From a virus: a stretch of DNA of 22,692 bases. The notes under the pieces are model-generated. The model did not search any database and was not told where the DNA came from. It saw only the letters and a program-made list of their open reading frames with translations. The stretch covers positions 1 through 22,692 of the IMG/VR virus record IMGVR_UViG_3300042444_000965. One strand, given 5' to 3'. This document shows, piece after piece, positions 213 to 22,692 of this stretch. How positions within the stretch are numbered: the first letter of the stretch is position 1; the number at the start of each line of letters is the position of its first letter. A program made the translations under genes and the position numbers.

Positions 213-3365
<3,153 letters not shown>

Positions 3366-4528: not shown

Positions 4529-5905
4529 TTAAACCGTGAAAGAACCCGAACTGGAAACGGACGAAGCGGAAGTCGATGCGGATGTGGCTCCGAGCCGGGC
4601 AAACGCCTTTTGCGAGAACCCGACCGCCGACGTTTGCAGCAGCCCGCCCGAGAGGCTCCCCTCGATTGGTCCGAGGATGCGTCCGCTGTCGGATTCACCG
4701 CCCGGAGTTGTGATCGAAGAGGGAGTCGGCGGCGGTGGGGGAGGGTTCGACGGGTCGCGGATTAGCGGAACCGTATCGTCCCGCTGGGTTTCCATCAGCT
4801 CGAGGGAACAGTAGATGCAACGGACCTGGACCGAGCCGGGCGAGTAAACCGGCATGTCTGCTCCGCCCAGCCAGCAATTCACGCTCCACTTGTAATTCCA
4901 TTTGGCGGGATCGCTGAAGGTTGACGGATTGAACGTGCTCAGCGGCAGCACTAGCGTGACGCCGGTCTGGAGCGACTGGTCCGGAAGATAGAAGTCATTG
5001 AAGTTTGCGTCGAACTCGCCAGCGGTGAATTTCTTCGGCTGCCTCGACATCCAGAGAGGGTGGATCGTTTGCGAGACGGTGCCTGAAAGCGGCTCGACCT
5101 GGCCCAGTCGCGTGGACTCGACCCGCGCGTTGAGCGTCAGCCCCGGATAGCCAAACCCGATTGTGCGGCCCGTTGGTCCGTCCTTGAGCGGGCTGCGATT
5201 GCGGAAGACCACGAACGTGAGCTGCAGTACACCGCGGAACTGTTGCCGGTACCGCGACTGGATGAGCGCCAGCGGCTGGCCGCCGGCTCGCTCGGCCGCG
5301 ACGGCCTGAAAAGACTCCAGCCCAGGTAGGTAAGCCGGCAGTTGAGTCATGCCGTAGGGCACACCGACGAACGGAACCGGGACTCCTCCCCAAATCCAAT
5401 TCTGGAAAGTCTCCCAGAAGCCCGTGTTGAGGTAAGGCACTCCGACCACCGACGAACCCGCGTAAAACCGTTGACCGTGCGCTCGCCGCGAGACGTTCTT
5501 AACCGCCGCGCTGCCCCCGCCAACCCATCCGAGCACCGCCGCCTTGCCGACCAGCTTCGGTTCGATGGTTTCCAAAAGCCGGGCGTATGAACTGGTTGAA
5601 AAATCCGGCTTCACTGCCGGAAACACTGCCTCGGCATGAAGCAGTTTTCCACCTGCCGGAGTCGCGCCCATCGACTCGGGCGGAAACACTTTGACCAGCT
5701 CGCCGGCGATCATTCGAGCGCCCGAAAGATTGCGGACGTTCACTGTGAGATTGGGAAAGAAACTGGTGGAGCTCGCCGGATCGGCCGGCAGCCCCGAGCG
5801 TTTGGCCTGGGTCTCGCGGGCAACGTCAACCAGCTCCCGCCAAGCGCGAACTGAGCGCGGGAGTCGGTCGCCGGGCCTGAGATGCTGGAACGGGTCTTGG
5901 CTCAT
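4529..5905 (-). CDS. Tandem paralogous virion protein A (458 aa)
   Basis: This is the third of three related genes in translation order. The ATG at 5905 overlaps the stop of the preceding paralog by 4 bp (ATGA). Features shared with its two neighbours: an N-terminal 'GDRLPRSVRAWRELVDVA' segment, a first strand VNVRNLSGARMIAGELV, a core AAVLGWVGGGSA followed by a VGVPYL strand, FDANFNDF, and the sequence LELMETQRDD ending near residue 377. After that comes a Pro-rich linker (PPPPPP), ILGPIEG and an ~80-residue Ser/Ala-rich C-terminal tail ending SSVSSSGSFTV. There is no signal peptide and no recognised catalytic motif. The place in the operon (after tape measure and a distal tail protein) suggests a tail-tip or fibre protein. 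That role is inferred; the family has no name I can assign. Confidence 0.75.
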   Translation of the reverse strand: MSQDPFQHLRPGDRLPRSVRAWRELVDVARETQAKRSGLPADPASSTSFFPNLTVNVRNLSGARMIAGELVKVFPPESMGATPAGGKLLHAEAVFPAVKPDFSTSSYARLLETIEPKLVGKAAVLGWVGGGSAAVKNVSRRAHGQRFYAGSSVVGVPYLNTGFWETFQNWIWGGVPVPFVGVPYGMTQLPAYLPGLESFQAVAAERAGGQPLALIQSRYRQQFRGVLQLTFVVFRNRSPLKDGPTGRTIGFGYPGLTLNARVESTRLGQVEPLSGTVSQTIHPLWMSRQPKKFTAGEFDANFNDFYLPDQSLQTGVTLVLPLSTFNPSTFSDPAKWNYKWSVNCWLGGADMPVYSPGSVQVRCIYCSLELMETQRDDTVPLIRDPSNPPPPPPTPSSITTPGGESDSGRILGPIEGSLSGGLLQTSAVGFSQKAFARLGATSASTSASSVSSSGSFTV

Positions 5906-7455
5906 GCGCCTCCTCCGCCAAAGCCGGAAACCGTTGCGCCCGCGCTGAGTGTGGCATTGGCGGCGGTCAACGAGGCTGCACCGCTAACCGGTCCACTGGA
6001 GTAGCTACCTGAAGCAGCCAAAGAGGAATCCGCTGCGACCAACGCGGCCGAGCCGCTAACCGGTCCACTTGAAAAGCTCCCTGAAGCAGCCAGTGTACAG
6101 CCAGCCAGCTGCATCTCGGCTGAGCCGCGTACCGAGCCGAACCCGGTGGAGATCCGCCGCACCAAATTGCTGCCTTGCGTTTTTGGTGCCTGAGCCGGCG
6201 AAAAACCAATTGGCCCGAAAACGTCAGGACCAATGGAACCTGAACTGCTCGGGCTTGGCCCCGGCGTGATCACGGGTGGGATGACGGTTCCGTCGGAGCG
6301 GATCGCATCGTCGCGGTCGGTCTCGAAGATCTGCACCACCTCCGGGCCGGGCACCGCGAATGCTTCGGGAGGCACGGTGTTGGTGATGTTCCAGCCGCTG
6401 ACCAGCGAACCGCTGACGTTGAACCGGTAAAGCGCCGAGCGAGCCATTGCGTTGGCTTCGCTTTCACCCTTTTGCCAAAGATTCTTGCTTGAGAAATTGA
6501 CTGGAATTGAAAACGTCTGGGAGATCGGCCGGGGAGGAACTCCGCCATTTGGATTGAAGGCGGTGCCGGTCACGAGCGGGTCGAAATTAAAGTTCCCGCT
6601 GTAGGCGTTGGGCGCGGCGTTGAAGCCGACGATGGCCGGATGCCAGCAGATTGGTTCCAGCCAAATCTGATTCTGGCCGCCGTATTCGCTTTGGCGAAAA
6701 GTTTGCACGGCGGGCGGCGAAAAAAAGTTATTCGTGCCGCCCCAAATCGAATAGTTATGGTAGGTCCGAAGTTCAACCGAAGCGTTCCACCAGCCATGCT
6801 GGTCGGCTGGATTCCGCAGTTCCAAAGTAGTCCCGTAAAACGGAAAATTCCTGTATCCCAGCGACTCCATTCCGGGGAACCGCGCCTCAGGCGAGCCGCT
6901 GTAATTCAAACCAAACAGTTCGCCGAACCAAGCATGCCGCCCGACTGTGCTTGCCGCTCTGGGAAAATCCTGCCGAGCGGCCTGAACGTAAGCCAGCCCG
7001 GTAAAGGTCGTCCCGCCATAGGCTCGCTGCGGCTGAGTCCGTCTCCAGGCCTGCCCGCCGTAAACGTAATTGGCCCCGCGACGCCCCGGTCCAAGCCAAC
7101 CGAGGATCACCGCTGGACCGGCGCAGCCCGGAGGCAAGCGTTTCAGCGGCCGCGCGTAGGTGGCCCAGCCGGGTACATACGAAACCATCGGAAACACGAC
7201 CTGCCCGTTGTAGAAGTCGCCGGAGCCGGAATGTTTGCCGATCGGGATTGGCTGGTCGTCGGGTATCTGAAACTGAGTCGTATTGCGAATGAAGATGACG
7301 CGGTGAGGATAGTAGTCGGTTGAGACGGACGCATCGCCTGCGGGCCTGGAGTCCGAGTCGGCGTCTGCCCGGGCTCCATCTAGTAGCGAGTTAATGAGCG
7401 TTGCCGAACCTGGCAAGCTCTGTCCGGTGACTGGAAGTGCATAGGGGTCGCTCAT
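5902..7455 (-). CDS. Tandem paralogous virion protein B (517 aa)
   Basis: The middle and longest of three paralogs; ATG at 7455 and stop at 5902 both lie in ATGA overlaps with its neighbours. It shares the first strand VIFIRNTTQFQIPDDQPIP, the core AVILGWLGPG, and VVQIFETDRDD ending near residue 383, followed by GPIGFSP. The N-terminus (SLPGSATLINSLLDGARADA) resembles the short helix at the start of the other two. Its C-terminal ~134 residues are distinctive. Two near-identical 24-residue units, each with ASGS(F/Y)SSGPVSG(S/A)A, form a low-complexity Ala/Ser/Gly tail ending GFGGGGA. Such tails could act as flexible or beta-solenoid arms. No catalytic motif was recognised. A tail-tip or fibre role is inferred from position; I cannot name the family. 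Confidence 0.75.
   Translation of the reverse strand: MSDPYALPVTGQSLPGSATLINSLLDGARADADSDSRPAGDASVSTDYYPHRVIFIRNTTQFQIPDDQPIPIGKHSGSGDFYNGQVVFPMVSYVPGWATYARPLKRLPPGCAGPAVILGWLGPGRRGANYVYGGQAWRRTQPQRAYGGTTFTGLAYVQAARQDFPRAASTVGRHAWFGELFGLNYSGSPEARFPGMESLGYRNFPFYGTTLELRNPADQHGWWNASVELRTYHNYSIWGGTNNFFSPPAVQTFRQSEYGGQNQIWLEPICWHPAIVGFNAAPNAYSGNFNFDPLVTGTAFNPNGGVPPRPISQTFSIPVNFSSKNLWQKGESEANAMARSALYRFNVSGSLVSGWNITNTVPPEAFAVPGPEVVQIFETDRDDAIRSDGTVIPPVITPGPSPSSSGSIGPDVFGPIGFSPAQAPKTQGSNLVRRISTGFGSVRGSAEMQLAGCTLAASGSFSSGPVSGSAALVAADSSLAASGSYSSGPVSGAASLTAANATLSAGATVSGFGGGGA
5975..6118 (-). repeat. 72-bp tandem repeat, two copies, coding
   Basis: Two adjacent 72-bp copies (5975-6046 and 6047-6118) lie within the C-terminal tail of paralog B. 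The best-conserved core runs 5981-6018 against 6053-6090, starting CCGCTAACCGGTCCACT in both. Each unit encodes 24 residues with ASGS(F/Y)SSGPVSG. The unit length is a multiple of three, so copy-number change would preserve the frame. Confidence 0.85.
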
Positions 7456-8813
7456 GTCCCGCCGCTCCCCGTGTTGGCGGTGCCAGAAGCAGAAACGGTC
7501 GCCGAGGTCAGCGAAGCGGAAGCTTGACCATTCCGTAAGAAAAACAGGGGCGTTTTTATTACAGCCGAGTCCCCGCGTGTGCTGGCACCGACACGAAACG
7601 AACTGTCTCGGACGAGTGGTCCGATTTCGCTTGATTGCGTCCGGGACCCATTACCGAGAAATGGCGAAAGCGGGTTGCCGCTGCGGTCCCGCGAGTCGTC
7701 CCGGTCGATCTCCAGCAGCTCGACCATGCAGCCGGCTATCTTCACCGTCGGCAGTAACGGGCAGAGGTCTCGGCCGCGGCGGACAATTACGGTCCAGTAA
7801 AGATCCCCGCGAAAAAGATCCGTGGGTGATCCGAGCATGAACGGCGCGACAATCGTGCGGAACTCGCGTAGGTTCTCCGGCGGGACGCTTCCCGAGCTGC
7901 CGTCGGGAGTAAGCGGCGAGTTGTTGAAGTTGATGTCGAAGCCGCCGCCGGAAAACTGCCTGATGCAGCGATTGAAGAGGACCGGCCCGATGGTCCAGCG
8001 TTGAGCGAAATTGTCGGTACTTATCGATAAGTCCCGGCCAATATTGACTCCGACAATCAGCTCGCAGTCACCGTACAGAAACCCGCTGCGCAGGTTCACT
8101 CGCGGGCGCGAGACCATCAGCCGCATCGTCAGGGTCCCCACCAAGCGGCAGGGATGCACCGGCTGGTAAGCGTCCCAGAGTTTCTCCCGGCCGCCATCGC
8201 GAAGCGGAATGAACTCCAGTCCATCGATTGAGCTGGGCTTAGTTGCGGGACCGGGCACACCCGAAAGCGATCCGCCACTGCCAGACATAGGGATGGGAAT
8301 CCAATCGGCCTCGACGCCGGTAAACGGTTGGCTTTCATGTTTGGCTTGATTTAAAAACGGAACGCCAATGAAAGGTTTCCCGGCCCAGTGCCGGCGAGGT
8401 CCCAGCTGCGAGACTCCGTCGGGCAGATGCCCCAGCAGCACGGCCCGTCCTGCATTGCCCGGCTCTATCCGGTCGAGTGTCCGTACGAATGAGCAGGCCT
8501 CGGGTGCAACGATTCTGCCGGAAGCCGGCCAGATGACCGGTACCTGATGCAGCTTGGATGTGGTCGAGTTGCCAAACGGGAGAGTGCCGCTGGGCATTTG
8601 GACGTGACAGAGAGTCCCCGGCTCAATCCGGAAATTTTGAGCGTTGCGGACCTCGAGCATTTCGTAAGGGTAAGAGTCGAGAAACTGCTCGTCGCCCGAG
8701 GGCGGCGGGGAGTTTCGCTGGCGGCGATGTTTGGCGGCCCGCAGAGCCGCGTTCCAGGTCCGGCTCGACCTGGGCAGTTTGCCATTGCGGTTGACTTTAC
8801 CGAGCGGGTCCAT
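7452..8813 (-). CDS. Tandem paralogous virion protein C (453 aa)
   Basis: First of the three paralogs in translation order. Its ATG at 8813 overlaps the preceding stop by one base (TGATG) and its own stop overlaps paralog B by 4 bp. It begins with a Lys/Arg-rich segment (NGKLPRSSRTWNAALRAAKH) like the start of paralog A, then LEVRNAQNFRIEPGTLCHV, RTLDRIEPGNAGRAVLLGHL, GKPFIGVPFLN, FDINFNNSPL and VELLEIDRDD ending near residue 373, then EIGPLVRD. The C-terminal ~80 residues end in a Ser/Ala/Thr tail (SASLTSATVSASGTANTGS). The shared blocks occur at similar spacing in all three proteins, which shows tandem duplication followed by strong divergence. Likely a tail-tip or fibre component; biochemical role unknown. 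Confidence 0.75.
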   Translation of the reverse strand: MDPLGKVNRNGKLPRSSRTWNAALRAAKHRRQRNSPPPSGDEQFLDSYPYEMLEVRNAQNFRIEPGTLCHVQMPSGTLPFGNSTTSKLHQVPVIWPASGRIVAPEACSFVRTLDRIEPGNAGRAVLLGHLPDGVSQLGPRRHWAGKPFIGVPFLNQAKHESQPFTGVEADWIPIPMSGSGGSLSGVPGPATKPSSIDGLEFIPLRDGGREKLWDAYQPVHPCRLVGTLTMRLMVSRPRVNLRSGFLYGDCELIVGVNIGRDLSISTDNFAQRWTIGPVLFNRCIRQFSGGGFDINFNNSPLTPDGSSGSVPPENLREFRTIVAPFMLGSPTDLFRGDLYWTVIVRRGRDLCPLLPTVKIAGCMVELLEIDRDDSRDRSGNPLSPFLGNGSRTQSSEIGPLVRDSSFRVGASTRGDSAVIKTPLFFLRNGQASASLTSATVSASGTANTGSGGT

Positions 8814-9625
8814 CAGGTGCCGATCCCCAGCGTCGCGAAGTCTCCATACTGGTAAACCTGCTGGACGTAGACACCCTGAGCCTTGGGCTTGAGCGCGTTG
8901 GTCGGGCTATCGACCTCCTTGCACCAGTTGACCCAGAGATACTCCCAGCCCCGTTTGCTGGCGACCGAGACGCCAGCAACGCTCAGACCGGTAGCGTTGG
9001 GGCTGGCGGCAAAGCGAAACGAGATCTCCCAGTCGTCGTCACCGCGTTTTGAACCGCTTGCCCCAAGGAACAAGACTTCGCCTTGGGCAAACCCTTTGAA
9101 CGAGCTGCCGTTTACTTTGCCGGTCGCGTTAAACAGAGCCAGCTTGTAGGCCCCAGTCACGGTCGCCGCCGGAAGCACATGCGTCTCGGAGAAGTTGAAG
9201 ACCGGAGCCTGGACCTCGACGCCATTGATTCGCTCGCCATCGAAGTTCACCGCATTGGCCATATCGGGCGCGGTTGCGGGATACTTGGTCGTCGCAATCG
9301 CGTAGGAAACCTGCTTGGTCCCGCCGCCCGTCTCGAACTGGTAACTCGACTCGCCCTGCTGCAGCTCGTCCTTGTCGAGCGACCGTTTTGTAAACGTGCA
9401 AGTTCCGTCGAACAGCTGGAAGTCGATGTAGTCGAGCGTGAAGACCCGCTTGCTCAGCACAAAGCCATCGACCGTGACGCTGGCCGGTACAGCCGCAATC
9501 AGCGCGGCGTAAGCCACATCGCGATCGTCGGTGCCGCGAATCTTGAAGTTGTACTCTTCGCTCGACTCGGCAAAGTTACCGGTGCGGCGGGGAGATCGGA
9601 CGTACTGTTCGCAGGTGACTGGCAT
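8813..9625 (-). CDS. Putative distal tail protein (270 aa)
   Basis: ATG at 9625, four bases after the tape measure stop, and a stop shared with paralog C (TGATG). The protein is beta-rich with few charged clusters. Recognisable blocks are EYNFKIRGTDDRDVAYAALI near residues 24-43, a repeat of aromatic strands (VFTLDYIDFQLFDGTCTF), GTKQVSYAIATTKYP, and RGWEYLWVNWC near the C-terminus. The gene directly after a tape measure protein usually encodes the distal tail or baseplate-hub adaptor in siphoviruses, and the length (250-280 aa) fits. I do not recognise a named family from the sequence, so the Dit-like call rests on gene order. No transmembrane segment or signal peptide is visible. Confidence 0.65.
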   Translation of the reverse strand: MPVTCEQYVRSPRRTGNFAESSEEYNFKIRGTDDRDVAYAALIAAVPASVTVDGFVLSKRVFTLDYIDFQLFDGTCTFTKRSLDKDELQQGESSYQFETGGGTKQVSYAIATTKYPATAPDMANAVNFDGERINGVEVQAPVFNFSETHVLPAATVTGAYKLALFNATGKVNGSSFKGFAQGEVLFLGASGSKRGDDDWEISFRFAASPNATGLSVAGVSVASKRGWEYLWVNWCKEVDSPTNALKPKAQGVYVQQVYQYGDFATLGIGT

Positions 9626-9629
9626 TGTT

Positions 9630-11615
9630 TTATGGTCCCAGGCGGTTGGCTTTGGCGACGGCGGCCGGGATCTCCCGAATCAGCCGTCCAGTGTTGCGGG
9701 CGGTCTCTTCGCTGGAGCCGGCGATCTTCCGCTGCATGTCATCCCCCGGGCCGAACTGAAGCGCCTGCGCAGCGGAGAACGTGCCGACGGTGCGGCTCGC
9801 GGATTGCACTGCACTGGCTGCTTTTTCGGATTCAGCCTGAATGTCGATTGGGCTGGGTGCTCCGGGCCGGGCGGGTGCAGCGGGACTCTGTCCTGCGATG
9901 GCCTGCTCGGCTGCCGTATTGGCCGCGTCGAGCTTGGCCCGGGCCGCGGCTGCCTTGGCCGAACGCTCGGCTTTGGCTGCCTGGGCATCGGCGTTTCGCT
10001 GGTCGATGGTACGCTGCCGATCCTGCTCGAGCGCCTTGTCGATGTCCTTGCTCCGCTGGTCGATAGCGACTTGCCTTTGGTAGCGGGCGTCAAACCGCTG
10101 GCCGAGGATTTGCTCAGTCGAGGCATCACTGGCTGCGTTCTTCTGTGAAGTCTCGGCGTTGATCCGGTCGACCTCGGCCTGGACGTTAATCTCCGAGTCG
10201 AACAGGCTCTTGAGCCGTACCCAAGCCTTCTGCACAAACCCAATCGTCGAGTTCCAGGTCTTGGTCAGGAAGTTGGTAAAGTTGGTCCAGCTGTCGGTGA
10301 ACATCCCGATCGTTTCAATCCAGCCGATTTCCACAAACCCCCAGCTCTCATTGAAGAACTTGGCGATGCCGCTGATGGTACTGGTCCAGAGATTCAGCAG
10401 CGAAGTCGTGAAGTCGGTCCAGAGATTCTTCAGTCCGGCGATTCCCGTTTGCCACGCGGCGTCGATCGCCGTCCAAGCCAGTTCCATCGCCGCCCCAAGT
10501 TGCCCGGCCTGCAGCAGGCCCACAATGTTGCCGATGGTCCGGGAGACGGTCGCCAGCAAGGCCGAGAACTGCTCGCCCAGCCAGCCGACCATCGCGACGC
10601 CGAACTCAGTCTGCGTAGCGATCACCGCTCCCAGTGCGACGATGGCCGCGATGACCAGTCCCACGGGCGAGACGATTGCCGCAAACACCGCGGCCAGTAC
10701 GCCGCCAAGGGAAATCAGTCCACCGATCGCCGCCGAGAGGGCCAGCGAAGCGACTCCGAAGCTGACCAGTGCAGCACCCGCCGCACCGACCGCTGCGGCG
10801 ACGCCGGCAATCCAGACCACAAGTTCGCGGTTCTGGCTGATCCACTCTGCGACGCCCACGACAATCGGCGTCACGGTCTGAATGAGTGCAGTTAGAGCCG
10901 GCGCGAGGGCCGCTCCGATTTCAAATGCGACGTCTTTGACTACCGACCAGAGATTGGCCAGTGTGTCGCCGTAGAGTGTCGCGGCCGCAGCGTCGGCACC
11001 GCTCACCTGCAGGCCCAGGTCGCGTGCTTCCTGCCGCAGTGCCTTGACTCCGGCCGCACCCTGCGTCATCAGCGGAAGTAGATTCGCTCCTGACTTACCG
11101 AAGATGTCCATCACGGCCTTGGTCCGCAGGGCCGGGTCGGCGATGCCGCCGATAGCCTCGGCCAGTGCTTCAAACTGCATGTCGGGCGAGAGGCTCTGCA
11201 GGTCCTCGACTCGCAGGCCCAGCGCCGCTAGTGCTTCGATGGCACTACTGCTGCCGGTGGCCGCCTCGCCGAGCGTTTTGTTCATTTTATTGAGGCCGTT
11301 TTGCAGATCGCTCACGGCCACGTCCGACTGCCCGGCTGCGTGCCGCAGCTCGGAGAGTGCCTCGACCGAGACGCCGGTCCGGTCGCTCAGCTTGGAGAGT
11401 TCATCGCCGCTGGAGGAGAAGACCTGCACGCTGGCCGCCATCGGGCCGAGGATGGCACTGGAGAGCGCCGACATCCCGCCGCCGACAGCCGAGAGTCCCA
11501 TCCCGAACTTCTTCAGTTTCTCCTGGGCCGAGCGCAGGCCTTTGACCAGCGCCGAATCATTGGCACCGATCTCGACGAATGCCCTGCCGGCCCGGATTCC
11601 TGCTGCTGAAGACAT
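9630..11615 (-). CDS. Phage tail tape measure protein
   Basis: A 661-aa protein, ATG at 11615. The N-terminus AGRAFVEIGANDSALVKGL followed by LKKFGMGLSAVGGGMSALSS is typical of tape measure proteins. The segment 70-180 (SDRTGVSVEALSELRHAA...MDIFGKSGANLLPLM) is the conserved tape-measure core. A long hydrophobic stretch lies at about 264-333 (WIAGVAAAVGAAGAALVSFG, then LAAVFAAIVSP). A charged alanine-rich coiled coil covers about 505-590 and the C-terminus ends SEETARNTGRLIREIP. The protein sets tail length and is released during DNA delivery. With ~1.5 Å per residue (known rule for helical tape measures) it would suit a tail of roughly 100 nm; that figure is an inference. It follows a 167-bp gap that holds two hairpins. 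Confidence 0.93.
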   Translation of the reverse strand: MSSAAGIRAGRAFVEIGANDSALVKGLRSAQEKLKKFGMGLSAVGGGMSALSSAILGPMAASVQVFSSSGDELSKLSDRTGVSVEALSELRHAAGQSDVAVSDLQNGLNKMNKTLGEAATGSSSAIEALAALGLRVEDLQSLSPDMQFEALAEAIGGIADPALRTKAVMDIFGKSGANLLPLMTQGAAGVKALRQEARDLGLQVSGADAAAATLYGDTLANLWSVVKDVAFEIGAALAPALTALIQTVTPIVVGVAEWISQNRELVVWIAGVAAAVGAAGAALVSFGVASLALSAAIGGLISLGGVLAAVFAAIVSPVGLVIAAIVALGAVIATQTEFGVAMVGWLGEQFSALLATVSRTIGNIVGLLQAGQLGAAMELAWTAIDAAWQTGIAGLKNLWTDFTTSLLNLWTSTISGIAKFFNESWGFVEIGWIETIGMFTDSWTNFTNFLTKTWNSTIGFVQKAWVRLKSLFDSEINVQAEVDRINAETSQKNAASDASTEQILGQRFDARYQRQVAIDQRSKDIDKALEQDRQRTIDQRNADAQAAKAERSAKAAAARAKLDAANTAAEQAIAGQSPAAPARPGAPSPIDIQAESEKAASAVQSASRTVGTFSAAQALQFGPGDDMQRKIAGSSEETARNTGRLIREIPAAVAKANRLGP

Positions 11616-12567: not shown

Positions 12568-12896
12568 ATCGCCTGAATGATCTGCCCCTCCTGGGGCCGC
12601 GAAAAATTTACGACGGCCTCGATCAGGGCATTGGTCGCATTGACGATTCCCACGCCGGCAATCCCCTGGGCAAACTGCTTCTCAGAGAGGCCGACCTGCC
12701 GAATCTGTTCTTCCAGCAGGCAGCTCAGCACGTCGACCAGCAGGACCGGGTCTGAGGCGAGCCGCTCGAAAACCGTGTTCTCGCGGCTGGCGAATTCAGC
12801 CAGGTCGAGCTGGAACTCTGACTTCAGCTTTTTCAGTTCCAGAACCGTCAGTTCCAGCGTCCAGCCGCGGTCCAGCCGGTCTTTGAAATTAGCCAT
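12429..12896 (-). CDS. Tail assembly chaperone (gpG-like)
   Basis: A 155-aa helical, acidic protein. The ATG at 12896 overlaps the tail tube stop (TGATG). It starts MANFKDRLDRGWTLELTV, has LDLAEFASRENTVFERLASD and VDVLSCLLEEQIRQVGLSE in the middle, and ends with the helix ATERVLDRMETLDLERLVGQ and then a Gly tail. Position between tube and tape measure, length and helical character fit the lambda gpG-type chaperone, which coats the tape measure while the tail tube assembles and is absent from the finished virion. A second frame, -1 to this one, runs on past its stop with gpT-like sequence. Both products would be translated from the same mRNA. Confidence 0.75.
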   Translation of the reverse strand: MANFKDRLDRGWTLELTVLELKKLKSEFQLDLAEFASRENTVFERLASDPVLLVDVLSCLLEEQIRQVGLSEKQFAQGIAGVGIVNATNALIEAVVNFSRPQEGQIIQAMWAKFQATRELATERVLDRMETLDLERLVGQKLDPILASLPQKSGG

Positions 12897-13333
12897 CAGT
12901 TGATCACCATTTCTGTCGGAGGAGCCGTCGCCGGCGAGGGCTTGAGCGTGACGGAAATCATCTGCGCGTTTTCCAGTTCCTGAGTCCGCTCGAACTTCAG
13001 CACGCTGCAGGTCGCCCGCAGTCCGCGGCTTCCGGGGACCGTGATGCCACCGTCCATCACAGCGACTTCGATCAGGGCTCGGGTCGAGTAAGCCGTTGAG
13101 ATGGCCGCCATATCGGCGTCGCCGGCGATGTTGACCATGTCAAAGTCGATGCTCGCCTCGCGCAGCGTCGGCACCGTTTCGCGGTAGCCGCCCGAGGCGC
13201 GTCGGGTTACGTCGGCCTCGGACATCGCGTCTGTGAGCGTGAGGTCGCGGATGTTGGTGATTTCGGTCCACGCCGGAGTCGAGCCAGTTCCCGAGTTCCG
13301 GTAGGTCTTGGCATTGAGGCCGAGTTTGGTCAT
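12896..13333 (-). CDS. Major tail tube protein
   Basis: A 145-aa protein; ATG at 13333 with GGAG about 10 bases upstream. It begins KLGLNAKTYRNSGTG, then ITNIRDLTLTDAMSEADVT, RRASGGYRETVPTLREASID and DGGITVPGSRGLRATCSVLK, and ends in MISVTLKPSPA. The pattern of a short start, 'i.nv.dlt.....ea D.t.r...g....l.tl.d..i.f....' and a final strand is that of tube proteins in siphoviruses with the TP901-1/lambda gpV fold, which stack as hexameric rings into the tail tube. Gene order (tail completion, tube, chaperone pair, tape measure) supports the assignment strongly. No sheath gene follows, so a non-contractile tail is expected. Confidence 0.85.
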   Translation of the reverse strand: MTKLGLNAKTYRNSGTGSTPAWTEITNIRDLTLTDAMSEADVTRRASGGYRETVPTLREASIDFDMVNIAGDADMAAISTAYSTRALIEVAVMDGGITVPGSRGLRATCSVLKFERTQELENAQMISVTLKPSPATAPPTEMVIN

Positions 13334-13349
13334 CGCAGTGGCTCCGATT

Positions 13350-13970
13350 TCAGGAGGTGATCAGGTTTTTGAACGAGGTTGCGATCAGCGGCCGAGCTTT
13401 TTCCAGAGCGGGGCTCATGTAGGGACGTTTGGCGAGGCGAACACTCAGGCGTCGCTTGCGAACTGAGCCGCTCGCGGGGAGCGTCCCTGCCGCGCGCTTG
13501 CGGAGGAAGGCTTCAAGTTGACGCCCGCTCGCCTTGCGGCCGCGCCGCGCGGGCCTCTCCAGCTGCAGGACAGTGATTTCCGTTGTGCCACCATGTTCCA
13601 GCACGGCGGCGGCATCTCCCGAGGAGTTGAACTTTGTCGGTCCTGCGACCACCGATTTGGTTTTCGGGTCGTAGGCAAACAGGATTCCCTGCTTGAGCGT
13701 TCCCTTGCGGACCCGCGGCGGCTCGCCCGGCTCGCTCGATTTGAGCGGCAGGTTTTCCCGCTTGCCGCCGGCCGCCTGAAAAATCGCTAGCTGCGTTTCG
13801 CTCAGTTCAGCTTCTTTCATCCGGCGGGCTTTGCGCATCGAGCGCCGAGCAGCAGTCCGTACGAACCCGCCGAGCTTGGCCAGTGCGGAGGCCCTGCCCT
13901 TTTCAACTTCTTCCATCACGCGAATCCGGTCGAAGAAGAATTCCTTTGCCTGACTGAACGTCAGCTCCAT
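13350..13970 (-). CDS. HK97 gp10-like tail completion protein
   Basis: I choose the ATG at 13970 (MELTFSQAKEFFFDRIRVME), 206 aa. The frame is open up to 14111, but the extra residues are basic shadow sequence over the upstream gene, and GAGGCGG sits properly before 13970. The protein shows the HK97-gp10-type layout: an N-terminal helix, GGFVRTAARRSMRKARRMKE near residues 34-53, PGEPPRVRKG at 81-90, GILFAYDPKTKSVVAGPTKF at 95-114 and VLEHGG at 123-128, followed by a basic C-terminal half. This family joins or completes the tail at the head-tail connector. The high Arg/Lys content suits contact with DNA or with an acidic connector surface. It lies just upstream of the tube gene, as expected. 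Confidence 0.75.
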   Translation of the reverse strand: MELTFSQAKEFFFDRIRVMEEVEKGRASALAKLGGFVRTAARRSMRKARRMKEAELSETQLAIFQAAGGKRENLPLKSSEPGEPPRVRKGTLKQGILFAYDPKTKSVVAGPTKFNSSGDAAAVLEHGGTTEITVLQLERPARRGRKASGRQLEAFLRKRAAGTLPASGSVRKRRLSVRLAKRPYMSPALEKARPLIATSFKNLITS

Positions 13971-13977
13971 TTCCGCC

Positions 13978-14172
13978 TCACTTTTTGGGTGGTGAGTTTG
14001 CGGCCAGCAGGTCGCGCAGCAGCGAGACCTGACAGGACACAAGCCTCGCGTCGGGCGTCTCGGCGTCGACTTTGCCGCCGAGGGTGCGCAGCGTCTCGGC
14101 CTTGATTGCAATCAGCGCCTCGGGGGCGAGGCCTTTGACTGCTGCGTTGATGATTTCACGAACGGATTCCAT
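13978..14172 (-). CDS. Small hypothetical protein (64 aa)
   Basis: ATG at 14172 and stop at 13978, 7 bp before the gp10-like start, so the two are translationally close. The sequence is mostly helical: VREIINAAVKGLAPEALIAI, then KAETLRTLGGKVDAETP and a second helix VSCQVSLLRDLLAANSP. No motif or membrane span is seen. The length, a start 27 bp after the protease stop, and placement in an otherwise solid operon support a real gene. Function unknown; a small connector or scaffold-type protein would fit the location. Confidence 0.55.
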   Translation of the reverse strand: MESVREIINAAVKGLAPEALIAIKAETLRTLGGKVDAETPDARLVSCQVSLLRDLLAANSPPKK

Positions 14173-14199
14173 GCGTGGGTCTCTCAGGTGTGGGAGGAA

Positions 14200-15246
14200 T
14201 CAGTCAAGCAGTTTGGCCAGCTCGGAAAGCAGGCTGATGAGCCGCGGCCAATCATCGCCAAGCTGGGCGCGAAGTTGCTGCTCGGCTGGTCCGATCTCCG
14301 GGCACTCCGGCTGGGGATTGCTCTCGTCTTGGCCGCCGTCCCAAATCGGATAGTCGCTGAGTGAACTGGTCTCGCGGTGGTAACCTTCGAGGAGTTCGAC
14401 GCCGGCAGTGGAGGCCGGGATCATCATGCCTGGTACTCGGGCTGGGCCGTCGGTGTTCTGCTGCTGGGATTGCCGATAGATGGTCGCCGTTTTTTGACCA
14501 GCGCCGTTGCCGTTAATCGTCCAGGTGAGGAGTCCCTTCTGCTTACCGTCCTGCACGACGGCCGAGCCGCTCTGGCCGCCGATGGAATTCGGCTGCCAGT
14601 ACCAGATGCTTCCCAGCTGCAGTGTGCGGCAGAGCTGGCCGCTGGGAACTTCGCAGCGCGGACAGCCCCAGGTTCCGGTAAGCTCGCGCGTATCCGGCTC
14701 GGTCTTGGAGAGTTTGATTGGCTCCAGTCCCCGCATTGCGGTCGGTTCGGCCTTGAGCAGCGCCCAGTCGGTCGAGGTCTTGCTGCTGTAAGCCGCTTCG
14801 ATGACGCGAGCGGTGAATTTTTCGGTGCCGCTGCCATCGGCCAGGAGCGCTTCGCAGCTGACCGTGTGTCCGATCCGCGAGCCGGCGACGTGTGCGTTGG
14901 TCAGGATGTAGATGCCGGTTGCGTCCCGTCCGCAGAGCGAACCAGTGCCGCAGGAGCTACCGTTGAGGATGCGCACAGCGCGCTTGGCCCAGGAACGAAT
15001 CTTGGCTTCCTCGGCTGCGCTGAGGGCGTAGCCGCTGGGTCCCCGCAGGGTTTTGTACCAAGCGGTCGAGGCCGGCTCGACCTGGGCTTGGGTTTCGATT
15101 AATGGGAGAGGGATGTTTGATGCGTAAATAATCGGCTGCGGACAAACGCCGCCGGGGCAAGTGCCCGAAGGCTGGCGGCGGAATCGCTGGGCCTCGGCTG
15201 AGCTGGCAATGAAGAGAAGAAGCAAAATCGTGAGTAGCTGTTTCAT
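14200..15246 (-). CDS. Secreted trypsin-like serine protease
   Basis: A 348-aa protein with a clear signal peptide (MKQLLTILLLLFIASSAEA, cleavage after residue 19). The protease domain carries the chymotrypsin/trypsin-fold triad: His119 in ILTNAHVAG, Asp160 in STDWALLK, and Ser226 in GGQSGSAV. Several cysteines (30, 35, 99, 105, 131, 195, 198, 206) may form disulfides outside the cytoplasm. The C-terminal ~90 residues are acidic and Gln/Pro-rich and end in a Leu-rich helix. The gene lies inside the phage operon, between a small secreted protein and the gp10-like gene, in the same orientation, 27 bp before the next gene. It is not the prohead protease, which is in the capsid fusion. It may act on host cell-surface proteins, in lysis, or as a moron benefiting the lysogen; the target is unknown. 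Confidence 0.85.
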   Translation of the reverse strand: MKQLLTILLLLFIASSAEAQRFRRQPSGTCPGGVCPQPIIYASNIPLPLIETQAQVEPASTAWYKTLRGPSGYALSAAEEAKIRSWAKRAVRILNGSSCGTGSLCGRDATGIYILTNAHVAGSRIGHTVSCEALLADGSGTEKFTARVIEAAYSSKTSTDWALLKAEPTAMRGLEPIKLSKTEPDTRELTGTWGCPRCEVPSGQLCRTLQLGSIWYWQPNSIGGQSGSAVVQDGKQKGLLTWTINGNGAGQKTATIYRQSQQQNTDGPARVPGMMIPASTAGVELLEGYHRETSSLSDYPIWDGGQDESNPQPECPEIGPAEQQLRAQLGDDWPRLISLLSELAKLLD

Positions 15247-15295: not shown

Positions 15296-15694
15296 CTAAC
15301 TGAACAGGTCGATCAGCGTGGTGATGAATTTGAAGATCGATTCCTGGTTGGCGATGATGAACTTGATGAAGGCGTAGAACTGGTCGCCGGCGGCAACCTC
15401 GGCAGCCGCTTCATCGAGCTGCTCGGCGTAGCGGATGGCGAGGTATTCACAGAGGGCCGCGTCCTTGGCCGCGCGGCGAAGCTTGGCGGCCTGCAGCGGC
15501 CGCAATCGGTTCTGCTCGGCCAGTTGATTGAGGGCCACCTGAAAGGCGAGCGTCCGCTCACGCTGCACGTCAAGCTCTGCCGGAACTGCAGCGGGAGCTT
15601 CCGTCAGAAGCGAGACCGGCTCGCTGGTTTGCTGGCCGAAGGCAACGGAAGGAAGAAAGCAAATGGCGAGAAGCATCGGGAGTAGGTTTTTCAT
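15296..15694 (-). CDS. Small secreted protein with hydrophobic C-terminus
   Basis: A 132-aa protein; ATG at 15694 with the previous stop at 15701. The N-terminal 20 residues (MKNLLPMLLAICFLPSVAFG) form a signal peptide. The mature part is a helical, charged segment (VQRERTLAFQVALNQLAEQN, then RRAAKDAALCEYLAIRYAEQ) and the last ~27 residues form a hydrophobic aromatic helix (FIKFIIANQESIFKFITTLI). It could be a periplasmic protein with a membrane-binding end. It neighbours the secreted protease and shares its orientation, so the two may act together. A spanin-like or lysis-accessory role can be imagined but there is no lipobox or other sign. Unknown function. Confidence 0.7.
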   Translation of the reverse strand: MKNLLPMLLAICFLPSVAFGQQTSEPVSLLTEAPAAVPAELDVQRERTLAFQVALNQLAEQNRLRPLQAAKLRRAAKDAALCEYLAIRYAEQLDEAAAEVAAGDQFYAFIKFIIANQESIFKFITTLIDLFS

Positions 15695-15700
15695 GGTCGG

Positions 15701-16135
15701 TCATTCCAAACTGAGGTAGGTGGCAATCAGGACGGTGTGAAAGGTTCGTTTCCCTTCCAGGAGTTTCCAGTCAAAGGTCTGAATCTCGGTGCGGGCCAGA
15801 CTGAAGCCCGCGAGGCTCCGGCAGCTGGCGTAGAGGAACTTGTCCAGCCGCTCGGCCAGTTCCAGCAGAGCGTCGACTTCCGTTTCGCTCGCCAGCTTCT
15901 GCACAATCTGAATCGCAATCCGCGTCGTGCGTTCGATGTCCCGCCGCGTCTTGGGTGTGCCGGAAATCGTTCCCGGCGCGACATTCACTGTCAGCGAGGA
16001 AACTGCGTCGAGGTCGTCCGTCAGGTACCAGGCGGCACTCGGTGTAAAACTTGGCCAGGTAGCAGGTGGCGAAGGAACCCAGGCGGCAATCGCCGTGACG
16101 ACCGCGTCTCGTAGTGCCTTGGTCTCACTCGCCAC
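15701..16135 (-). CDS. Head-tail connector / tail terminator-like protein
   Basis: A 144-aa protein starting with GTG at 16135 (MASETKALRDAVVTAIAAW), 3 bp after the preceding stop. It has an N-terminal helix, a segment AWYLTDDLDAVSSLTVNVAP, then a strand RDIERTTRIAIQIVQKL followed by the helix SETEVDALLELAERLDKFLY and a final strand RTFHTVLIATYLSLE. The 'R..r....i.iv......e.e.d.l..l.e.l..fl' pattern with an edge strand at the C-terminus is that of tail terminator or minor tail proteins that cap the tail at the connector. Position between the head-closure gene and the tail module fits. The precise role is inferred from order and fold pattern. Confidence 0.65.
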   Translation of the reverse strand: MASETKALRDAVVTAIAAWVPSPPATWPSFTPSAAWYLTDDLDAVSSLTVNVAPGTISGTPKTRRDIERTTRIAIQIVQKLASETEVDALLELAERLDKFLYASCRSLAGFSLARTEIQTFDWKLLEGKRTFHTVLIATYLSLE

Positions 16136-16138
16136 CGT

Positions 16139-16495
16139 TTACCCCGCAATCTTTCTGACGTGAATCCGGTACAGCTCCTCGGTCGGCCTGCGGAAGCAAG
16201 GCTCGTCCCCCAGAAGCTGTACCTCATAAGTCCCATCCGCCGAGACGATTCGGTCGCCGACTTCCGGGAGCAAAGGCACGGCCGCAATCTGCAGCCGGTC
16301 CTTGTGAATCAGCCAGTCGATTTGCACGCTGCGGACCAGACTCCCGTCTTCCCCTTCCGACTCGAACACCTCGCGTCCCTGCACGGCATCCGGTACCGGA
16401 ATGGATGTTGCACCCCGGTAGTAGGTGACGGGCTGGCCGGCTGCTGGGGGCAGCTGCCGGGAGAGCCAACTCAGTCCATCAGTCAGCAGTGACAT
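16139..16495 (-). CDS. Head closure (stopper)-like protein
   Basis: A 118-aa protein, ATG at 16495, TAA at 16139. It begins SLLTDGLSWLSRQLPPAAGQ with YYRGATSIPVPDAVQGREVF following. The rest is a small beta-barrel pattern: VRSVQIDWLIHKDRLQI, then LPEVGDRIVSADGTYEVQLL and a C-terminal strand YRIHVRKIAG. The 'p..GD.i...g..y.v' signature is shared by head-closure or stopper proteins of siphoviruses, which sit beneath the portal and hold DNA inside the capsid. It follows the DUF2190 gene by 4 bp and precedes the terminator-like gene by 3 bp, giving the standard head-to-tail order. No enzymatic motif. Confidence 0.7.
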   Translation of the reverse strand: MSLLTDGLSWLSRQLPPAAGQPVTYYRGATSIPVPDAVQGREVFESEGEDGSLVRSVQIDWLIHKDRLQIAAVPLLPEVGDRIVSADGTYEVQLLGDEPCFRRPTEELYRIHVRKIAG

Positions 16496-16965: not shown

Positions 16966-19077
16966 TTAGGCGATGCCCTTGCTCTTCACGCCGGCTCGCC
17001 ACTCCTGCTTGGCGACACCGAAGTCGAAGTAACCCCGCATCGCGATGCCGAGCGTGTCGAAGTCGGCTTCCGCTTCTTCGATGACCGGAGTCTGCTGGCC
17101 GTTGAGGAACACGACCTCGATGGTCGCAAGGTCATTCGGGTCGCTCAGCAAATACCAGGCGTTCTGTGAACCGCCGAAAGCCGTGTTGCCGACGTAAGCC
17201 GAGACTTCGGGACGGTAGCGACCGGCAAACACGTTGATCGCCATGTTCTTTCCCGCTGAGCCGGTGATCAGTCCAGTCGAATTAAACAGCTCGCGGGCCG
17301 TGACGCTGTTGCTCGAGGCGACCAGCAGAATCGCCGGCGTCAGGCCGAGCGGATTCCCCTTGGGATCGACCTGGTCCATGAACATCTGCTCAGCGGTCTG
17401 CAGCGAACTGCTCTGCAGGTTGGTAGCCGCACCCTCGAAGTAGTTCTTGCGGGCCGTGGTGAAGAAGGTCGAGTTGCTGTTGAACTCAGTCCAGAAAACT
17501 TCGTTCAGTTCCAGTGCTGCTCCCCGGCCAATCTTCTGGGCCCGGGTGCTGAGCGCGCCGAGATCGTCGTTGATGATGTCTTGCCGCGTGAGCGAGAGAA
17601 TCTTGCCGTAGGTCTCGGCCTTGTTCGAGAAAGATTCCTCCTCGAATCCGGCGTGCTTGAGCCGGCCGTCGGGACCAACCCGCTCGAACTTGGCGTCTTC
17701 AATCAGCCGGAAGCGGGTCACCGTTTTGAAGTCGTTGACTTGGCCGACCGCGGCAATCGAGCGCCAGACACTCTCGACGGCGTTGAAGCTCGCCAGCAGC
17801 AGCTTGTTGCCCGTGTTGGAGAGGATGCCCGAGATCTCGTGCATCGTGAATGCAGCCCGGAGAAAGTCGCGGGAGACTTGCCGCATCGGACCGGGGGGGA
17901 CCGGGTAACCGGCCGCACCGGCGGCCATGATCAACAGTCGCTGCAGCCCGACGCCGGTGCGGTACTGCTTGTCGGCCGCTTCCAGCGTGCGGGTATCGAA
18001 CCGCTGCTCGCGATCGAGCAACTGGGCGCTCTTGGCCACGGCGCACTCGAGCACGGTGAGGTTGCCGGAGAAGTCCTGGGCAACGTGAATTGCCGGACTG
18101 GCGGGACGGCTGGCACGCAGGGCTTCGAGTTCCGTTCGCTCGACGCTCCAGCCTTCGCGGATAGCGTGCGCTTCGAGGCTGGGGACTTCCTTGCCGTCGA
18201 CCTTCGTGGAGCTGATGTTGTACTTGCTGCAGACCAGGCGAATGCCGCTGGTCCGGTCGGCTTCGGCTGCCTGAATCTCGCGGACTTGTTTTTGGATGGC
18301 TGCCGTGTCGACAGTCGCTGTGAGCGGAGCCGGCTTGGTAGCTTCCTCATGTTGTTCGGGCGTTTCGGTCTCCGAGTCGTAAGCGGCCCGGAGAAGGTCG
18401 AGCTGCGGCTGGCTGAGGCTCGCTTCGTCAAAGCCGTTGGCTGTGAGCCACTGGGAAAATTCCATGAGAGATTGCTCCTGAGGAGAGAGAGTGGCGGCGA
18501 TTGATGCGGTGGTGTTGTCATCAGCTCCGAGTGCCGCGAAAGAGATTTCACGGAGCGATGTCCTGCGGGCGACGTAGACCGGCCCGGAGAAGTTGCGGCC
18601 ATTGACCTTGACCGTGTTGCCACGGTCGACGAATTCGAGTTGCTGGACCTCGGCCCCGATGCTTGCCTGCCAGGGGAAGCCGTTGTCGCCCAGTGCGGTC
18701 ACTTCGGAAGCCGCGGCGCTGATGCCACTGACTTTTCCCGAGACTTTGATTGTCTGGGCCGTGACGGTGATTTTTTCGCTGTGCCCGACGATCTGGGCTG
18801 CATCGTGCGAGTAGAGAATCGGCCGTGTGTGCGAGCGGACCGTCATGCCCGCCAGATCCACGACCACTGGCCAGTAGTAACCAGCGACATTCATCTGGCC
18901 GCCCGTGTAAGCGGTCATCGAAAAGGCGCGGACCTTCGGCCGCTGGCCTTCCGTAGAGGGTTCCGCAGCGGTGAGCTGCAGGTCGGCCACCTGGCTGGTG
19001 AGCGTGATGCGCTGGGGACCTTGGGCGAGCAGCTGCTTACGCCGCGGCTTCTTCCGGGGTCGAGTCTTCCGTGGCAT
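16966..19077 (-). CDS. Prohead protease-major capsid protein fusion
   Basis: A 703-aa protein. ATG at 19077 overlaps the portal gene by 41 bp and has no good ribosome site, so translational coupling is likely. After a basic N-terminus (KTRPRKKPRRKQ), residues ~45-185 carry a prohead-protease-like domain: His91/His99 in SHDAAQIVGHSEK, and Ser139 in PWQASIGAEVQQ. Residues ~240-330 are a helical, acidic/basic linker that could act as a scaffold domain (for example AIQKQVREIQAAEADRTSG). From ~400 to 703 is a Mu gpT/HK97-fold capsid protein: KAETYGKILSLTRQDIINDD, AQKIGRGAALELNEVFW, GNTAFGGSQNAWYLLSDP and MRGYFDFGVAKQEWRAG. The usual separate protease, scaffold and capsid genes thus appear as one ORF. 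The precursor would assemble and cut itself apart during maturation; this is inferred from related fused phages. Confidence 0.88.
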   Translation of the reverse strand: MPRKTRPRKKPRRKQLLAQGPQRITLTSQVADLQLTAAEPSTEGQRPKVRAFSMTAYTGGQMNVAGYYWPVVVDLAGMTVRSHTRPILYSHDAAQIVGHSEKITVTAQTIKVSGKVSGISAAASEVTALGDNGFPWQASIGAEVQQLEFVDRGNTVKVNGRNFSGPVYVARRTSLREISFAALGADDNTTASIAATLSPQEQSLMEFSQWLTANGFDEASLSQPQLDLLRAAYDSETETPEQHEEATKPAPLTATVDTAAIQKQVREIQAAEADRTSGIRLVCSKYNISSTKVDGKEVPSLEAHAIREGWSVERTELEALRASRPASPAIHVAQDFSGNLTVLECAVAKSAQLLDREQRFDTRTLEAADKQYRTGVGLQRLLIMAAGAAGYPVPPGPMRQVSRDFLRAAFTMHEISGILSNTGNKLLLASFNAVESVWRSIAAVGQVNDFKTVTRFRLIEDAKFERVGPDGRLKHAGFEEESFSNKAETYGKILSLTRQDIINDDLGALSTRAQKIGRGAALELNEVFWTEFNSNSTFFTTARKNYFEGAATNLQSSSLQTAEQMFMDQVDPKGNPLGLTPAILLVASSNSVTARELFNSTGLITGSAGKNMAINVFAGRYRPEVSAYVGNTAFGGSQNAWYLLSDPNDLATIEVVFLNGQQTPVIEEAEADFDTLGIAMRGYFDFGVAKQEWRAGVKSKGIA

Positions 19078-21787: not shown

Positions 21788-21806
21788 TCGCCGCCAGGCG
21801 GGCGGA

Positions 21807-21823
21807 GGCACGGAGGTCGTGCC
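21807..21823. terminator. Stem-loop between convergent genes
   Basis: GGCACG (21807-21812) and CGTGCC (21818-21823) form a perfect 6-bp stem with a 5-nt loop, 20 bp after the SUMF1-like stop and 51 bp before the zinc-ribbon gene's stop. Surrounding sequence has further GC-rich self-complementarity. No T-tract follows closely, so termination, if any, may be Rho-dependent or weak. Confidence 0.3.
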
Positions 21824-21873
21824 GGCGGATGCCCGCGACCGGAGATGCCGTAGCCGACTGGCGAAGCGCGGTT

Positions 21874-22092
21874 TTATTTGGTGGCTTCTGCAGTGCCGGA
21901 TTTGTTGCGATTGACTATTGCCAAGTCTGCATTGCTCAATTCAAACGTCACAAACCGGTATCCGCAATTCCGGCACTTCCGCCTTCGCCGCACCGAACCA
22001 TTCCTCAGCCGCTCTGTGTTGCTGACTGAGCAATGCTGACAGCCGCAGCGGCGGCAGTACATTCCGATGGCGGGCTGGTTTTTCTCGGTCAT
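21874..22092 (-). CDS. Small zinc-ribbon protein (NrdR-like ribbon)
   Basis: A 72-aa protein. The ATG at 22092 overlaps the terminase stop by 4 bp (ATGA). It contains a four-cysteine zinc ribbon: Cys13 and Cys16 (YCRRCGCQHC; Cys18 and Cys21 are extra), then RRRRKCRNCGYRFVTFE with Cys40 and Cys43. The basic RRRRKC..CGYRF.T.E block closely resembles the DNA-binding ribbon of NrdR, but the ATP-cone domain of NrdR is absent. Small ribbons of this type occur in phages as DNA-binding or regulatory proteins. Coupling to the terminase suggests a packaging or late-gene role; this is inferred. It is the last gene before the oppositely oriented SUMF1-like gene. Confidence 0.75.
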   Translation of the reverse strand: MTEKNQPAIGMYCRRCGCQHCSVSNTERLRNGSVRRRRKCRNCGYRFVTFELSNADLAIVNRNKSGTAEATK

Positions 22093-22692
22093 CGCGGCGG
22101 TCTCCGGCGGGGGATATCAGCGGCCGTGATACGGCGGCGATTGCGGGCGGGTGCTTCACCGAGCACCGTATTGAGCGTCACGCCAATGAGCGATGCGGCG
22201 ACTGCGTTGCCGGCCACTCCATCGAGCCAGTGGTTGTCTCGCCCCGGCCGGAGGTTCCAGACCGTGACTGTTCGTCCACTTTCGGCGGACGTCTGCTGGT
22301 CGGGATACTCGGCCGTGAGGTGCTCGGCCAGCATGTAATGCGTCTGCGGGTCGCCGCCGTACAGCGTGATCGCTCCGGGATCACCTGGGACCGTGGCAAA
22401 GCGGTCGAACAGAAACGACTTCCACCAGTTGGAGTCGAACAGGCAGTGCCGAATCGCCCGCTTCACGTTGCGCGTGACCATCCAGTTCAGTCCGATTTCC
22501 TCTCCCGGCCGTTTCTCGTAGGCCGCAAATGGCTTAGCCCGGGGGCCGACAGCTCGCCCGAGGCTCGGCATTGCGACCGTCGAAAATTCCTGTTCGCGGC
22601 AGACCTGATAGACCAAGTGCGATTTGTAACCGGCATCGACCAGAATCCGGGAATGCCGGAACGTGATCCCGTCCTGCCGCTGGTAGCTTTTC
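22089..22692 (-). CDS. Terminase large subunit (GpA-like), C-terminal part
   Basis: The frame enters from the right edge and ends at 22089; about 200 residues are present. The first ATP-ase part is off the window. The visible part is the nuclease domain of the GpA-type large terminase: RILVDAGYKSHLVYQVCR, AMPSLGRAVGPRAKPFAAYE, NWWKSFLFDRFATVPGDPGA, HYMLAEHLTAEYPDQQ, and WNLRPGRDNHWLDGVAGNAV. The 'DaGY', 'WWK.f...R', 'aEhltaEy' and 'DNHWLD' blocks are characteristic of this family, which cuts concatemeric DNA and pumps it into the prohead. The C-terminus is Arg-rich. The stop is coupled to the zinc-ribbon gene. Confidence 0.92.
   Translation of the reverse strand, partial: KSYQRQDGITFRHSRILVDAGYKSHLVYQVCREQEFSTVAMPSLGRAVGPRAKPFAAYEKRPGEEIGLNWMVTRNVKRAIRHCLFDSNWWKSFLFDRFATVPGDPGAITLYGGDPQTHYMLAEHLTAEYPDQQTSAESGRTVTVWNLRPGRDNHWLDGVAGNAVAASLIGVTLNTVLGEAPARNRRRITAADIPRRRPPR

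Follow-up and report, generated by a model that had tools for sequence, protein, structure and literature searches.

A predicted exported trypsin-fold serine protease and its small helical partner in a phage family, with a possible role in lysis or egress

MarP (Rv3671c) and HtrA/DegS are bacterial periplasmic serine proteases of the PA clan, with a chymotrypsin fold and a His-Asp-Ser triad. Phages also encode proteases in their late operons, among them the major head-and-protease proteins (PHROG 4523/133). For lysis, dsDNA phages are normally expected to encode a peptidoglycan hydrolase, and their endolysins are either canonical, holin-dependent enzymes or exported by the Sec pathway.

In this study, we analysed a viral DNA of 22,692 nucleotides (IMG/VR record IMGVR_UViG_3300042444_000965; the whole stretch is hereafter called the window), which encodes a trypsin-fold serine protease among its structural genes. 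MarP and HtrA/DegS are the best PDB matches of the protease model and have in common with it the fold, the triad and the envelope location, the last being predicted for the phage protein. The latter differs from them in being phage-encoded, in lacking a PDZ domain and in having a separate, predicted exported helical partner, and the sequence identity is 20-28% over about 110 residues. The head-and-protease protein of the window has no signal peptide and is unrelated in sequence to the protease described here. As in phage endolysins, two modes of export are likewise predicted within the protease family, and membrane genes lie near several members. The protease, however, has no peptidoglycan-hydrolase or muralytic domain; the likeness is one of working and not of membership. 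The domain itself, Trypsin_2 (PF13365), is already known and, as a broad model, is uninformative on function; the present lineage adds to it a CPxGxCP leader and the partner gene.

The phage family, the partner and their arrangement were not found in the papers searched or in INPHARED and PLSDB, from which the protease family was absent at the sensitivity used. A literature search found no paper describing such a phage protease family, and neither "trypsin" nor "Planctomycet" occurs in the text of a survey that covers the lytic proteins of prokaryotic viruses broadly (PMC12596118).

Catalytic residues and fold of the protease

The ORF had originally been predicted to encode an exported, active protease with a signal peptide, a His119/Asp160/Ser226 triad and multiple cysteines. 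The coordinates of the ORF were borne out, the triad residues lie at their predicted positions, and a putative signal peptide and nine cysteines are present (Table 1). The N-terminus, MKQLLTILLLLFIASSAEA followed by Gln, reads by eye as a Sec-type leader with an AEA-Q cleavage motif. The nine cysteines are residues 30, 35, 99, 105, 131, 195, 198, 206 and 315. Judging from the intact triad and the leader, the protein appears to be a catalytically competent, probably exported protease. It is a regular component of the phage.

The Pfam match to PF13365 covers residues 100-233 and exceeds the curated cut-off. It was the sole match above cut-off, and no peptidoglycan-hydrolase domain was detected by Pfam. 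A candidate zinc finger at residues 193-209 (Phage_zn_bind_8, E 0.0085) was under the cut-off and was rejected; it is consistent with the CxxC in the core of the protease. The AlphaFold2 model of the full-length protease was moderate (pLDDT 59), and its first barrel matched PA-clan entries in the PDB (Rv3671c/MarP, 7.5e-4; DegS and HtrA, about 1e-3). These matches, the order of the His, Asp and Ser residues and the PF13365 match place the protein in the PA clan, with the second barrel poorly modelled. The residue at the base of the S1 pocket, six positions ahead of Ser226, is Asn220 and not Asp. The Arg/Lys specificity of trypsin is therefore not predicted, and the term "trypsin-like" used in the original prediction holds for the fold but not for the specificity.

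Given that the nearest folds are those of MarP and DegS/HtrA, and that several divergent members carry a C-terminal membrane segment, the protein could be an envelope-stress or quality-control protease of the HtrA/DegS/MarP kind, serving the lysogen or host takeover and not lysis. Pfam, however, detected no PDZ domain, a mark of HtrA/DegP proteases, and the NCBIfam model of DegP (TIGR02037) was not matched above cut-off, with only E 0.06-0.07, far under it, in two relatives. The gene also occupies a late-operon position in the window group. These facts make a quality-control role quite unlikely.

Table 1. Features of the protease locus in the window and small membrane genes beside the pair in other phages (coordinates of the respective contig)
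Feature	Position	Strand	Remarks
Protease ORF, trypsin-fold serine protease, predicted exported	14200-15246	minus	348 aa; Trypsin_2, E 6.8e-7
Putative signal peptide	15190-15246	minus	residues 1-19 (AEA-Q); sequence inspection by eye
CPGGVCP leader motif	15139-15159	minus	residues 30-36; in L040 on the partner instead
Catalytic domain	14527-14982	minus	residues 89-240; 82-89% identity among close relatives; termini drift
Catalytic His119	14890-14892	minus	sequence, comparison with relatives
Catalytic Asp160	14767-14769	minus	sequence, comparison with relatives
Catalytic Ser226	14569-14571	minus	GGQSGSAV; sequence, comparison with relatives
Partner, small all-helical protein, predicted exported	15296-15694	minus	132 aa; C-terminal hydrophobic helix LIDLFS
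Conserved C-terminal hydrophobic helix of partner	15302-15346	minus	residues 117-131
Flanking head-tail connector genes	15701-16495	minus	16139-16495, Phage_H_T_join_3; 15701-16135, without family
Flanking genes, other side	12896-14172	minus	13978-14172; 13350-14021, neck/tail-completion-like (weak); 12896-13333, tail tube-like
Capsid-processing protease fused to major capsid gene	16966-19077		PHROG 4523/133-type
Small membrane gene, L038	2884-3099		overlaps partner start
Small membrane gene, L042	2785-3102		adjoins pair
Small membrane gene, L041	8758-9240		adjoins pair
Small membrane gene, L037	2420-3117		adjoins pair
Small membrane gene, L029	9104-9403		adjoins pair

The partner gene and the position of the pair

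The original prediction treated the protease alone and missed the partner gene, which travels with it. This gene lies directly upstream of the protease after a gap of 49 bp, and its product has a putative signal peptide of its own at the N-terminus. The AlphaFold2 model of the partner is a confident all-helical domain, with pLDDT above 90 across most of residues 41-130. A PDB structure search with this model gave no match, the protein was left unnamed by every profile library scanned, and no catalytic motif that would mark a hidden muralytic enzyme was seen in its sequence. This arrangement, with the partner immediately ahead of the protease, is shared by the window and 13 related contigs (near-duplicates included), and the two sub-families of the partner align to each other (hhalign E 7e-8). 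In L048-L055, no partner was found.

The protease is in the same orientation as the structural genes, and the gaps to its adjoining genes are 49 and 27 bp. Scanning the window copy of the pair for consensus promoters and terminators gave no candidate site. The gene is thus cooriented and tightly packed, and unlike a set-apart moron, as had been proposed; likewise in agreement with the proposal, the capsid-processing protease is a different protein, encoded as a fusion with the major capsid gene. No membrane gene was seen among the late genes of the window besides the partner. Synteny with the window extends over the pair and its connector neighbours in G001 (29.7 kb), G002, G003 and L007, with L004 and L005 as near-duplicates within this close group, and the protease is present on every contig found carrying the head-tail joining gene.

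From this syntenic position between connector and tail genes, the protease might be a virion component or have a role in assembly, acting for instance on a tail or connector protein, or it might be borne by the particle and digest envelope protein at entry. Such a role is at odds with the signal peptides on both protease and partner and with the capsid having its own fused protease, and it is further weakened by the related phage G010 (IMG/VR record UViG_2883346072, an identifier that reads as isolate-style), in which the pair lies outside the block of homologous capsid, portal and tail genes. We therefore consider it improbable. In comparison with the window, the portal of G010 is 47%, the capsid-protease 38% and the tail proteins 28-31% identical; its pair is located about 15 kb away from this slot, at 13575-15150, beside the terminase and upstream of it, and none is present in its connector region. 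The position in the connector block is therefore the habit of one lineage, and the meaning that the original prediction gave to the block itself was not upheld. Protease and partner form a portable module, the connector slot of which is kept in close relatives.

Conservation, layouts and neighbouring genes

In IMG/VR contigs, 18 related loci were found, some of them near-duplicates. Successive scans reached G004, G005 (L009), G006 (L029), L037, L038, L040, L041, L042 and L048-L051, and the most distant relatives reached were L052-L053 (27-28% identity). The sole match in a GTDB genome (L010, Rhodocyclaceae) was rejected as spurious, the shared GSIWYWQ stretch belonging to an efflux-type protein.

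The portability of the pair and its occurrence in different slots would also be expected of a recently acquired passenger without function for the phage. The protease was found, however, in the same slot in several related contigs, and its triad was never mutated, being intact in 19 of the 19 proteins compared, down to 27% identity. Its GC and GC3 are those of its neighbours, and its dN/dS (0.10-0.24, Nei-Gojobori) is like that of the neighbouring genes. The catalytic part is conserved among close relatives, the N and C termini of which fall to 38-61% identity. We therefore rejected the idea that the protease is a passenger or a decaying gene, which is extremely improbable.

The family shows three layouts. 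In clade A, the type of the window, both the signal peptide and the CPxGxCP-like leader are on the protease. In the seven relatives of clade B (L009, L029, L037, L038, L040, L041 and L042), the protease has no signal peptide, its N-terminus lying at the catalytic domain or close to it, and the partner alongside has one wherever its start is visible, i.e. in all but L042. The partner of L040 carries the leader AQ.LRR..CPNGVCP, which clade A has on the protease (tblastn E 0.004). In a shuffle test, scores as high were obtained in 3 of 2000 cases against the window and in 2 of 2000 against L002. A swap of the leader between protease and partner is thus well supported by sequence comparison for L040 only; the signal in L041 is weaker. 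In L050-L053, where no partner was found, a membrane segment is present at the C-terminus of the protease. These layouts may have in common that the protease is retained on the outer side of the inner membrane, either through the partner, acting in trans, or through an anchor of its own.

As a separate observation, all seven clade-B proteases terminate in FGL or YGL. FGL recurs in the L040 partner (TTFGL, SSFGL and a terminal AFGL). In L009 (1534-2235) and L037 (1944-2336), it also comes after the signal peptide in small secreted proteins encoded nearby.

In several other phages, the neighbours of the pair are the terminase and small genes that encode a membrane or signal segment (Table 1). 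Such segments were found in 20 of the 46 small co-oriented genes within 2.5 kb of the protease versus 9 of 138 farther away, a crude count in that the ORF calling was simple and neighbouring genes are not independent.

Both this neighbourhood and the tight packing of the pair bear on another explanation, in which the protease is expressed by the lysogen and trims an outer-surface receptor against superinfection, the partner being a helper or self-protection factor. The signal peptides on both proteins, the portable position of the pair, the fast evolution of the termini around a conserved catalytic core and the integrases in some relatives (G001, G004 and G010) would fit such a surface modifier. 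In the window group, however, the pair is tightly packed in the late structural operon, where the gap shows nothing resembling a promoter, and in other phages it lies near the terminase, adjoining small membrane genes. A surface modifier therefore seems unlikely.

Other genes near the pair are worth recording. In L017, an ORF of 64 aa that encodes two membrane segments (10318-10509; G001 25318-25512) is located between partner and protease, in antisense orientation. A few genes from the pair, L029 encodes a CAP (cysteine-rich secretory) protein with a signal peptide (6290-6730, E 1.7e-11). In L008 (G004), a matrixin-like gene with an HExxH motif is found two genes after the pair (2708-3256; Peptidase_M10, E 0.0017, under cut-off). 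A membrane gene adjoins the protease of G014 (L063 3304-3900; G014 21804-22400); the gene set scanned with it gave one Lipid_desat match (E 6e-37), by sequence probably that gene.

Lysis or egress, host and other genes

Five peptidoglycan-hydrolase families, PF01510 (Amidase_2), PF00959 (Phage_lysozyme), PF13539 (Peptidase_M15_4), PF01464 (SLT) and PF01520 (Amidase_3), were searched in six frames in 13 phage records (355 kb). None was found in any record, and each was detected in control genomes. No muralytic family at E 0.01 was among the Pfam matches listed for the called genes of G004, G006, G010 and the window/G001 block. These facts are suggestive of a phage group without the common peptidoglycan-hydrolase families, in records that are possibly incomplete; an endolysin could sit in their unsampled parts.

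G010 has a DUF1559 gene (1.2e-53), and DUF1559 gave matches in 0 of 14 control genomes. According to PMC10632474, this domain seems to be confined to Planctomycetes. A planctomycete host for the protease family is therefore indirectly supported, by way of structural kinship with this one relative. The planctomycete host of the original prediction is accordingly supported for G010 only; for the window, comparisons of HsdR, integrase and terminase gave no host assignment. In Planctopirus limnophila, most peptidoglycan-synthesis genes are non-essential, and a cysteine-rich YTV protein was suggested to affect or regulate wall rigidity (PMC10632474).

The explanation that we favour, with about an even chance of being correct, is that the serine protease is made late, is exported and, assisted by its partner, cuts proteins of the envelope so that the host lyses or virions leave; the hosts would be ones that can largely do without peptidoglycan genes. 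Partner and protease would be expressed late from the structural operon; for G010, late expression is assumed, because its pair lies beside the terminase, outside the structural block. The protease would be exported to the envelope compartment via its own signal peptide and would cleave host envelope proteins there, resulting in cell breakage or virion release. The partner, with its predicted export and hydrophobic end helix, may tether, chaperone or restrain the protease at the membrane. An active protease exported by Sec could be toxic before the time of lysis unless restrained. In relatives without a signal peptide, the protease may cross the membrane once a holin-like neighbour opens it, as with canonical endolysins; these proteases could also act in the cytoplasm. 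The two genes, the intact triad, the purifying selection, the co-conservation of the pair and its portability are directly established, as are the small membrane genes beside it in several relatives and the absence of the five hydrolase families from the 13 records, and we infer export, proteolytic activity, late expression, the substrate, holin function, the role of the partner and lysis.

Of the three roles originally proposed (lysis, surface modification against superinfection and service to the lysogen), lysis is best supported, by the small membrane neighbours, the members without a signal peptide and the 13 records without a hydrolase match. Against lysis, no HMM profile recognises holins among the membrane neighbours, and none of these lies near the window copy; in addition, the records are incomplete and planctomycetes possess peptidoglycan (PMC4432640). 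In a more far-reaching form, which we put forward tentatively and at somewhat below an even chance, the endolysin is replaced by a serine protease that is either exported or let out by a holin and that has its own dedicated partner, the strength of the planctomycete cell lying in crosslinked cysteine-rich protein and not in peptidoglycan. Phages without common hydrolases, always with an exported protease and usually with a partner, would represent a new strategy of lysis or egress, if this is true. This bears on the long-standing question of what holds planctomycete cells together. Should the protease be sufficient to open them, this would indicate that protein forms a load-bearing layer, in line with the dispensable peptidoglycan-synthesis genes of P. 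limnophila (PMC10632474).

Several other genes of these phages may be mentioned. The L029 phage (38 kb) also has queuosine-pathway genes (QueE-like, GTP cyclohydrolase and queuine tRNA-ribosyltransferase-like). In the window, a type I restriction R subunit (HsdR, 213-3365) adjoins the late block on the opposite strand, and G001 has HsdR- and HsdM-like genes (4959-7394 and 8644-10566) at the corresponding place, which suggests that a site for restriction-modification cargo lies between integrase and tail genes. Three neighbouring proteins at 4529-8813 of the window, without a Pfam match, are alike in size and have related opening motifs; they are possibly tandem paralogues.
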